This document shows, piece by piece, positions 6,510-63,315 of a stretch of 64,000 bases of DNA. The position numbers and the translations under genes are program-made. The stretch is from Planctomycetota bacterium. Its GTDB lineage: Bacteria; Planctomycetota; Planctomycetia; Gemmatales; Gemmataceae. Position 1 is the stretch's first letter. Each line of letters begins with the position of its first letter. The stretch covers positions 1 through 64,000 of the forward strand of contig VGZI01000007.1 in the NCBI GenBank assembly GCA_016872605.1, in the 5' to 3' direction. The notes under the pieces were generated by a model that saw only the letters and a list, made by a program, of their open reading frames with translations, did not search any database and was not told the DNA's origin.

Positions 6510-7658
6510 ATGCAGCCGATCTACCTCGATTACAACGCAACCACGCCGATCGATCCGGCCGTGCTTGAGGCGATGACGCCGTATTTGCAAACCGACTTCG
6601 GCAATCCGTCCAGCACGCATGTCTATGGCAAGACCGCGCATGATGCTGTCGAAAGAGCACGGGCTCAGGTCGCGAGCCTGATCGGCGCCCAGCCGGACGA
6701 AATCGTCTTCACGGGCGGCGGGACCGAGGCGTCCAACCACGCGATCAAGGGCGCCGTCTACGCCAGCATGTCCGGGTTCTTTGCTCGCTGGTTCACTTCG
6801 CCGCACGTCATCATCAGCGACATCGAGCATCCGGCGACGCTTCAGCCCTGTGCGTTCCTCAAGCGGCTCGGCTGCAAAATCACCTCGCTTGGCGTCGATC
6901 GCTATGGCAGCGTCGACCCGTTTGCCGTCGAGAACAACATCGGCGGCAGCACGTCGTTGGTCAGCATCATGCACGCCAATAACGAAGTCGGCACAATCCA
7001 GCCCATCCGCGATATCGCCCAGTTCGCCAAGGCGCGTGGCGTCCTCGTCCATACGGACGCCGCCCAGTCGCTCGGCAAAATTCCCGTCAACGTCAACGAC
7101 TTGGACGTCGACCTGTTATCGATCGCGGGGCACAAGCTCTATGCGCCGAAAGGCATAGGGGCGCTTTACATTCGCAGGGGCGCCAAGATCGAATCGCTCA
7201 TGCACGGCGCCGGACACGAGGCCGGGCGGCGCGCGGGAACCGAGAATGTGCCGTACATTGTCGGCCTAGGCAAGGCGTGCGAGGTCATTCAGCAGAATCC
7301 GTCACTGGCGCAACGAATGAAGGGACTGCGCGATCGCCTGTACGATCGGCTGCATCAAGCACTGGGCGATCGCATCGTCTTGAACGGCCATCCCGATTTG
7401 CGCCTTCCGAACACGCTCAACATCAACATCCTCGGTCAAATCGGGGCCGATTTCTTGAAGAAGGTGCCGGAGATCGCGGCGTCGACGGGGTCGGCCTGTC
7501 ACGAGGGATCGATCACGCAATCGCCGGTGCTGTGCGCGATGGGCGTGCCGCCGGAGATTGGACAAGGAGCGGTGCGTCTGAGCGTCGGGCGATTTACGAC
7601 GGAGGAGGAGATCGACCGGGCGGCGGAGATCATGGTGCGGGCAGCCATCAGAGCGTGA
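6510..7658 (+). CDS. Cysteine desulfurase (IscS/NifS class)
   Basis: A pyridoxal-phosphate enzyme that takes sulfur from cysteine for Fe-S cluster and thio-cofactor synthesis. The 382-residue protein carries the family start YLDYNATTPIDP, GGTEASNHAIKG, the PLP Asp183 in HTDAAQSLGK, the Schiff-base lysine K209 in SIAGHKLYAPKG, and the persulfide-forming cysteine C330 in STGSACHEGS. No iscU or iscR lies next to it, so it could be an IscS-like housekeeping enzyme or a stand-alone NifS-type enzyme; no symbol is assigned. No Shine-Dalgarno sequence precedes the ATG; instead TACAAT lies six bases upstream, so a leaderless mRNA is possible. Confidence 0.93.
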   Translation: MQPIYLDYNATTPIDPAVLEAMTPYLQTDFGNPSSTHVYGKTAHDAVERARAQVASLIGAQPDEIVFTGGGTEASNHAIKGAVYASMSGFFARWFTSPHVIISDIEHPATLQPCAFLKRLGCKITSLGVDRYGSVDPFAVENNIGGSTSLVSIMHANNEVGTIQPIRDIAQFAKARGVLVHTDAAQSLGKIPVNVNDLDVDLLSIAGHKLYAPKGIGALYIRRGAKIESLMHGAGHEAGRRAGTENVPYIVGLGKACEVIQQNPSLAQRMKGLRDRLYDRLHQALGDRIVLNGHPDLRLPNTLNINILGQIGADFLKKVPEIAASTGSACHEGSITQSPVLCAMGVPPEIGQGAVRLSVGRFTTEEEIDRAAEIMVRAAIRA

Positions 7659-45738: not shown

Positions 45739-45788
45739 AGCGCCTGAACCGTAAGCGAAGGATTTCATAACGCTAACGCTTCAGGCTC
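45739..45788. repeat. Family B hairpin (copy 2)
   Basis: AGCGCCTGAACCGTAAGCGA and CGCTAACGCTTCAGGCTCT form imperfect arms of about 19 bases. It lies between the PrsW-like gene and rpmJ and may mark the end of the former. Confidence 0.65.
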
Positions 45789-45793
45789 TGACG

Positions 45794-61085: not shown

Positions 61086-61110
61086 GCGGCTTGTTCCGAT
61101 CAGTCCCGTC

Positions 61111-61165
61111 AGAGCCTGAGGCGTTCGCGAAGAGAAGCTCTTCCTTCGCTAACGCTTCAGGCTCT
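61111..61165. repeat. Family B hairpin (copy 3)
   Basis: AGAGCCTGAGGCGTTCGCGA and TCGCTAACGCTTCAGGCTCT are the arms, around AGAGAAGCTCTTCCT. It lies in the divergent gap between the VOC gene and the POT transporter gene, so its promoters must be on either side of it. Confidence 0.8.
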
Positions 61166-61269
61166 GATATTTCACCACAAAATCGACAGCCAACGGTTGT
61201 GTTTTATGAAAAATCCCTGTACCCTAACCTCACTTCGCAGCGACAAAGCGTACTGAGGAGATCTTGTTC

Positions 61270-63315
61270 ATGAGCGCGCCAACCGCATCCCAGGCAACCT
61301 CTCCCGTGCCCGACGTCCCACCTCCTGAGAAACCATCGCTCATCAGCACGCTAATCAACCATCCCATCGGCTTCTGGTTCATTTTCTGGGGCGAGTTGGC
61401 CGAACGCTGCTCGTTTTACGGCATGATGGCGATCTTGCCGCGATTCATCGCGGACGACAACGGCCTCTACCTGGGTGACGCCAACTCCAACACGTGGGTG
61501 TCGATGTTCAAGGCGGGGGCGTACGTTCTGCCGCTCGTCGGCGGCTTTCTTGCGGATCAGTATCTGGGCAAGTATCGGCTCATCGTGATGTTCTCGATCC
61601 CGTACATCCTCGGCCATGTATTGATGAGCTATGAGACCGTCTTTTGGACCATGGTGGCCCTCTCGCTTTTGGCCATGGGCAGCGGCATCATCAAGCCGAA
61701 CATCTCGACGCTCATGGGAATGACCTACGATCAAATGCGTCCCGGCGATGAAGCGCTCCGCTCGATGGCGTTCGGCATGTTTTATATGGCGATCAACGTC
61801 GGGGCGGCATTGTCCTACTTCTTCCTACCGCTCATCCGCGACGATTACGGCTACTCGATTGCGTTCATGTGTCCTGCGGTTTTGATGGCGGTGTCGTTCT
61901 TGATCTTCGCGGCGGGAAAGCCGTTTTATGCGGTTGAAACGATCGTATACAAGGAGTCGACTCCGGAGGAAACCGCTCTGAAGTGGTTGACATTGCGCCG
62001 GGTCGCGGGCATCTTCCTGGTCATCACATTCTTCTGGGCGATCTTCGACCAAAGCCACACGATCTGGATTTTCTTCGCTCGCGATTTCACCGACTTGCGA
62101 ATTTTCGGCTGGGAGATTTCCGTCGAGCAGATCGGAACTCTGAATCCGGTGTTGATTGTGATATTTGTGCCGCTGATGCCGGTGCTGTGGAACTTCGTCG
62201 AGAGCAAAGGCTATACGGTGAGGCCCACCGACAAAATCATCATCGGCTTCGTGCTTACGATGTTGAGCATGCTGATCATGGCAATCGCGGGGTATCAGTG
62301 CGATGCCTACGAAGACAAAGTCGTTGTGAAGTCGGAGAGGTCGATCACCAACATTGTCGTCGATGATCCGAGCAAGGTGACGGTGGGAGTCGTATCGAGC
62401 TCCGGCGAGGGCGCCGGCAAGAAGGAATATGTCCGTCGCCGCGACAAGGCGAAGCCCGCAGCCGAATTGGGCGCCAGCAAACAGGTGACGATCACGGTCG
62501 TCTCCGAGACGAAGAAGGAAGCGCCGGTACGCGTGGTCACGCCGCGCTATGAGAAGGACGTTCGTCCCATTCTCAACGGCAGCTGTGTGCAATGTCACGG
62601 CAAGACGGCCACGGCAGGGCTTGATCTCAGAACGCTCGAAGGAATCATGAAGCCGGGCAAATCCGGTCCTGCCGTCGTCGCCAATGATCCCAAGAAGAGC
62701 TTGATCTTTAAGGATCACAAGAGCCTGATTCCGCCCGATACCAGCGAAGACGCCGAGTTCAAGATGATCGAGCAGTGGACGGGCCCCGGACTCAGCAGGA
62801 AGCAGCTGGCGGCCATCGGCGATTGGCTCGAAGTCGGATTGACTACCGACCAAACGGCGACGATCACCCACTGGATTGAGAAAGGCGCCACTTCAACTGC
62901 TGCGCGCAGCGTGTCGCTCTGGTGGGAAGTGCTGGCGTTCATCACACTCACGCTGGCAGAAGTGTTGATCTCCATCACGGGCCTGGAGTTGGCATTCGTC
63001 GTGGCGCCGCAATCGATGAAGAGTTTCGTCACGGCATGCTGGCTCATGACCGTCGCGATCGCCAATTTCTTCATCAACGCGCCGGTTGGCCGACTCTACA
63101 GCACGATGTCCCCCGGAAACTACCATTTGATGCTCACGGGGCTCATGGTGGTAGTGATCGTCGCGTTTTACTTCGTTGCTCAGCAATTCAATCAGATGGC
63201 AGCGGAGCAGGAAGCAGCTGAGAAGGCTGCGGGGCAAAAGGCCGAGACGCCAGCCGCCGGGGCCGAAGCGACTGAGAATGGCTCGAATGGCAAGCCACCG
63301 GCCGGCTCTGCATAA
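61270..63315 (+). CDS. POT-family transporter with an inserted cytochrome-c-like domain
   Basis: A 681-residue member of the proton-coupled oligopeptide transporter (POT/PTR2) family. GELAERCSFYGMMAILPRF holds the ExxER motif and AFGMFYMAINVGAALSYFF the second signature. The last part, WWEVLAFITLTLAEVLISITGLELA and APQSMKSFVTACWL, is typical of helices 10-11. Between helix 9 (ends near residue 345, IIMAIAGYQ-type) and WWEVL (about 550) lie about 200 residues: a linker and a PSCyt1-type domain with RYEKDVRPILNGSCVQCHG, heme motif C439-x-x-C442-H443, and LIFKDHKSLIPPD. The tail is rich in Ala/Glu. GAGGAG precedes the ATG at 61270. Confidence 0.9.
   Translation: MSAPTASQATSPVPDVPPPEKPSLISTLINHPIGFWFIFWGELAERCSFYGMMAILPRFIADDNGLYLGDANSNTWVSMFKAGAYVLPLVGGFLADQYLGKYRLIVMFSIPYILGHVLMSYETVFWTMVALSLLAMGSGIIKPNISTLMGMTYDQMRPGDEALRSMAFGMFYMAINVGAALSYFFLPLIRDDYGYSIAFMCPAVLMAVSFLIFAAGKPFYAVETIVYKESTPEETALKWLTLRRVAGIFLVITFFWAIFDQSHTIWIFFARDFTDLRIFGWEISVEQIGTLNPVLIVIFVPLMPVLWNFVESKGYTVRPTDKIIIGFVLTMLSMLIMAIAGYQCDAYEDKVVVKSERSITNIVVDDPSKVTVGVVSSSGEGAGKKEYVRRRDKAKPAAELGASKQVTITVVSETKKEAPVRVVTPRYEKDVRPILNGSCVQCHGKTATAGLDLRTLEGIMKPGKSGPAVVANDPKKSLIFKDHKSLIPPDTSEDAEFKMIEQWTGPGLSRKQLAAIGDWLEVGLTTDQTATITHWIEKGATSTAARSVSLWWEVLAFITLTLAEVLISITGLELAFVVAPQSMKSFVTACWLMTVAIANFFINAPVGRLYSTMSPGNYHLMLTGLMVVVIVAFYFVAQQFNQMAAEQEAAEKAAGQKAETPAAGAEATENGSNGKPPAGSA

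Follow-up and report, generated by a model that had tools for sequence, protein, structure and literature searches.

A POT-family transporter of a planctomycete with a PSCyt1-type cytochrome c domain inserted between TM9 and TM10

What is a heme attachment motif doing inside the frame of a peptide transporter, and is the arrangement real? The question is raised by a gene at 61270-63315, on the forward strand of the stretch of DNA analysed here (the window: 64,000 nucleotides of contig VGZI01000007.1, from a lake planctomycete of the Gemmataceae). An ATG at 61270 opens the frame, which runs uninterrupted through transporter and insert for 681 aa, as the original prediction from the letters of the sequence had claimed; the alternative start, an upstream TTG at 61264, has no effect on the analysis. 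Pfam searches match this continuous frame both to the transporter family PTR2 (1.6e-56; 192.3 bits against a curated cut-off of 27) and, within the insert, to PSCyt1. The PTR2 match comes in three stretches on both sides of the insert, and the helices flanking it are thus those of a POT, a claim that alignment with SLC15A2 also bears out.

The transporter core has the features of its family. TM1-TM9 (residues 33-343; 61366-62298, forward strand) are modelled by AlphaFold2 as helices with pLDDT mostly above 90 and, in the alignment with SLC15A2, hold E42xxE45R46 and K142; TM10-TM12 (residues 551-659; 62920-63246, same strand), modelled as helices 551-578, 581-612 and 615-659, hold E564. The POT signature ExxER in TM1, the Lys in TM4 and the Glu in TM10 are hence all present, and E42, E45, R46, K142 and E564 are invariant in an alignment of 48 sequences. 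In POTs these elements have roles in coupling. By sequence, the closest solved structures are mammalian PepT2 and PepT1, followed by PepTSo; a Foldseek search with the AlphaFold2 model likewise returned POT structures as top matches, with PepTSo best (2.3e-16), and PepT2 and DtpA also among them. We therefore predict a proton-coupled oligopeptide transporter of ordinary 12-helix build, located in the inner membrane, with symport activity. No other POT gene was found in the assembly, whose completeness is about 93%.

The position of the insert follows from the same model, built for the full protein with 48 sequences. It gives a confident core of 12 helices in the MFS fold, in which TM9 spans residues 319-343 and TM10 residues 551-578, and in which the HA-HB pair between TM6 and TM7 is absent; the insert itself is poorly modelled, with pLDDT below 50 for residues 353-501. 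The alignment with SLC15A2 is interrupted between residues 343 and 544 of our protein and between 400 and 602 of SLC15A2, whose residues 286-400 and 602-693 align with the flanks. Because there are 12 helices and no HA-HB pair, the TM9-TM10 loop would lie outside the cytoplasm, given a cytoplasmic N-terminus, which we take from the pattern of the POT family; on that footing the CxxCH motif is predicted to face the extracytoplasmic side, where heme c gets attached. We regard the architecture and the membrane side of the insert as well supported, and the outer-side loop had been foreseen correctly. What had been missed is that this is a known site for accessory domains. In the C-terminal bundle the TM9-TM10 loop connects one three-helix repeat to the other (PMC4597091), and it is where human PepT1 and PepT2 carry their extracellular domain, which is dispensable for transport and possibly a platform for proteases (PMC4597091, PMC8565842). 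The insertion point of the heme domain coincides with the position of that domain.

The interval 62300-62920, to which the heme domain had been assigned, is sound as the TM9-TM10 interval (residues 344-551) and too wide for the cytochrome, which takes up only about residues 425-546; the part at 62300-62540 is a linker. This extracytoplasmic linker (residues 344-424; 62299-62541, forward strand) has no family match in a Pfam search and evolves fast: it is shared with two relatives, a congeneric genome (G066) and the closest sister (G061), at only 28-36% identity. The cytochrome c domain, of PSCyt1 type, follows at residues 425-546 (62542-62907, forward strand), with the PSCyt1 match on residues 439-481 (1.3e-8; 35.7 bits against a cut-off of 22); the family and motif originally named for the insert were thus right. 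The PSCyt1 matches cover profile positions 1-44 of 59. The heme c attachment motif is CVQCH (C439, C442 and H443 in residues 439-443; 62584-62598, forward strand), and G066 has CARCH at the equivalent place. M499 (62764-62766, same strand) is a candidate distal heme ligand. It aligns with a Met conserved in 16 of the 16 further PSCyt1 domains compared from this genome, an alternative alignment putting LIPP there instead, and the G066 domain has no Met at this position. From sequence and alignment, the C-terminal helix of the domain appears to occur twice, as similar copies at residues 508-523 and 524-542 (62791-62895, forward strand), and once in G066.

Profile searches with the cytochrome domain match FoxE, CcoP and hydrazine synthase alpha. 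AlphaFold2 models the isolated domain (residues 421-546) as helical with moderate confidence (pLDDT 72), and a fold search with this moderate-confidence model found no significant match. Two frames of the genome belong to the cytochrome c assembly family PF01578 and many others carry PSCyt1, which makes attachment of heme c plausible; motif, family and location together suggest that the assembly machinery would attach a covalent heme to C439 and C442 on the periplasmic side. Like PSCyt1 (PF07635) domains of planctomycetes and Verrucomicrobia in general, the insert has CxxCH and much of the family signature. Its setting is different. Of the genome's other PSCyt1 frames, the 27 examined have 0-1 predicted TM helices and mostly a second CxxCH, and none of these 27 is a further membrane transporter, polytopic or otherwise. 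PSCyt genes usually encode PSD domains too (PMC5615132).

The source genome is a draft in 372 contigs, which invites the suspicion of a chimeric assembly or misjoined frames. An artefact of this kind is extremely improbable, and a chimera in the assembly is ruled out by the second genome and its synteny: G066 has the same architecture, with TM1-9 81-83.5% identical to those of the window protein, a PSCyt1 match in the insert (2.2e-7; 31.8 bits against the cut-off of 22) at the same place, an intact frame, and conserved neighbours, namely a VOC-fold gene upstream and a DUF1559-type gene downstream (names read from translations). G066 apparently corresponds to locus L069, contig CAMAUE010000029, of a MAG labelled Singulisphaera sp. 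GP187 isolate MaH-04nov19-250, which encodes the same protein. The original prediction had tied its case to the recurrence of CxxCH in relatives, and to this extent it does recur. We surveyed POTs in family, order, class and phylum samples and by a GTDB scan, the class and phylum being sampled and mostly long frames being read among the weaker class matches; this gave 160 distinct POT-like frames, 144 of them with both halves. CxxCH occurs in two of the 160, the window protein and G066, and was found in no further one of these frames. A heme insert as a universal feature of planctomycete POTs is accordingly ruled out.

The nearest relatives outline the history of the insert. G061 is 82% identical over TM1-9 and has the same linker, and it reads through FVTPENKVTLWW with no cytochrome; G062 and G063 have neither linker nor cytochrome. 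The transporter-core tree, (G062,G063),(G066,(window,G061)) with starred support, pairs the window protein with G061, and so implies either one gain followed by loss in G061 or two gains. In the tree of cytochrome domains the two POT domains group weakly (80/26) on long branches; HK and SGPA residues common to both favour one gain, and on this comparison of sequences a single origin is likely. Between the window protein and G066, TM1-9 show 83.5% identity and a pN/pS of 0.18, against 27.8% and 0.66 for the linker and 45.2% and 0.47 for the cytochrome domain, the last being a rough ratio, since synonymous change is saturated. The window protein keeps 21 of 37 PSCyt1 signature columns and G066 keeps 23 of 37, and the two agree in 14 of 50 columns outside the signature. 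The cytochrome fold is therefore under some constraint, far less than the transporter. The arrangement is real, rare, young and fast-evolving, and as the domain was lost or never gained in G061, it is dispensable there.

The loop that received it has received others. Among 141 POTs in which it could be measured, the TM9-TM10 loop is shorter than 30 aa beyond the helices in 98 and at least 80 aa in 39, with a maximum of 250; relatives of the window protein are over-represented among them, and 39 of 141 is no phylum-wide rate. Since so many have loops of at least 80 aa, the site evidently tolerates domains, and it is an insertion hot spot in planctomycete POTs, filled mostly by unnamed domains that do not bind heme, a fact that had likewise escaped the first reading. 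A conserved non-heme loop domain of 130-175 aa is found in POTs of the Gemmataceae (L142:3958-4443, L075:4138-4608, L080:2280-2768 and 13 further loci; alignment A6). These inserts resemble ours in transporter family, in loop and in a similar terminal WVxPxERVTVWW segment, and differ in their beta-rich look from sequence and lack of CxxCH. Pfam gives no consistent match for this domain, and the PDB no significant one; homology to the mammalian extracellular domain, a candidate considered for it, is unsupported. In POTs of the Pirellulales/Thermoguttaceae type (L081, L095, L098) this loop holds inserts of about 240-250 aa that are rich in Ala and probably helical. A second POT group (L178, L181, L184; frames of 758-859 aa, 14-TM-like) has a TM9-TM10 insert of about 165-170 aa, so that the hot spot spans more than one POT subfamily.

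We suggest, tentatively, that the protein is an inner-membrane POT that gained a mono-heme PSCyt1 accessory module in its TM9-TM10 loop, unneeded for transport and serving mainly in docking or tethering. An ordinary peptide/H+ symporter would recently have acquired a mono-heme c domain in an extracytoplasmic loop; the domain would stand outside the transport cycle, and it may, with less certainty, offer a docking surface to putative partners such as a periplasmic cytochrome or PSCyt/PSD proteins. The fusion itself is supported in two species by PTR2 and PSCyt1 matches that exceed the cut-offs, and the role of its heme domain is our inference; a docking or tethering module would suit the insertion site, the looseness of the linker and the fact that G061 does without the domain. 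Counting against it are that same absence from G061 and the poor model of the insert, whose fold search gave nothing significant. The analogue is the extracellular domain of PepT1 and PepT2, at the same site and proposed to hold trypsin. Human PepT1/PepT2 (SLC15A1/SLC15A2) are, like the window protein, POTs with 12 TM helices, no HA-HB pair and a soluble accessory domain, about 200 aa long, in the TM9-TM10 loop. Their domain, however, is built of two Ig-like lobes, which in vitro bind trypsin, whereas ours joins a linker to a helical cytochrome of c type. No relation in sequence was found between the two inserts, and ours, with its cytochrome family match and helical model of residues 421-546, is not Ig-like. 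PepTSo, PepTSt and DtpA share the core fold, ExxER, the TM4 Lys and the TM10 Glu; they have the HA-HB pair and no soluble TM9-TM10 domain (PMC8565842), the reverse of the window protein.

A passenger under weak constraint would explain the rapid evolution and the loss of the Met nearly as well as a docking module does. On such an account a PSCyt1 gene fragment landed in a permissive loop in the ancestor of a few species and is decaying there with no selected role, as the many unrelated inserts at this site, the raised ratios (0.47 for the domain and 0.66 for the linker against 0.18 for TM1-9), the absence of the cytochrome from G061 and that of the distal Met from G066 might all indicate. Yet CxxCH is retained in both members at 45% domain identity, signature columns are kept more often than others, both frames are intact, and pN/pS stays below 1, albeit with saturated synonymous sites. 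We hold this account to be possible, if on the whole unlikely.

The original prediction had offered, as one of several possibilities, coupling of transport to redox state, and this idea has lost ground: the domain is absent from G061 and confined to two of 160 frames, its evolution is far more rapid than that of the transporter, and in G066 the distal Met is missing. That last absence could also mean an open heme site, and the loop joins the two C-terminal three-helix repeats (PMC4597091) and enters TM10, with its conserved E564; a heme that reads periplasmic redox state, O2 or NO might then alter peptide uptake through the hinge of the C-terminal bundle, and a precedent exists in Cache sensor domains to which a c-type heme has been added (PMC12889525). 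Against this, the linker from TM9 to the heme does not look like a rigid coupling element, being long and of low conservation (28% identity); the sister G061 manages with no heme domain; and M499 argues for ordinary six-coordination in the window protein. Redox or gas sensing, or control of transport, is possible and nothing specific points there; we rate sensing as rather unlikely, and a heme-regulated secondary transporter in the full sense, in which peptide uptake is gated by a covalent periplasmic-loop heme that senses redox state, oxygen or NO, as a little more doubtful still. Improbable, too, is a shuttle of electrons between periplasmic partners with the transporter as mere membrane anchor: M499 is retained and there is weak profile similarity to the electron-transfer domains of FoxE and CcoP, but the heme is single, G066 has no Met ligand, and no redox enzyme was found near the gene among the frames read.

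Bacterial POTs here fill one loop repeatedly with different domains, a cytochrome among them, and close relatives form a natural series, from an empty loop through linker only and linker plus heme domain to other domains, in which one can test what a loop domain does to a peptide transporter. The protein may also be an instance of a secondary transporter that carries a covalent redox cofactor. The component families are known; the combination of POT and heme domain, flagged from the outset as unfamiliar, is apparently undescribed as far as our literature search shows, no report of a heme-bearing peptide transporter having been found in the open-licence papers searched.

A 24-nt inverted repeat precedes the gene on its upstream side (61109-61167; 92% complementary, 11-nt spacer). 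It has relatives at 7650 and 45739-45789, with 5 arm matches in the window against 0.01 expected, and is likely a dispersed REP-like palindrome.
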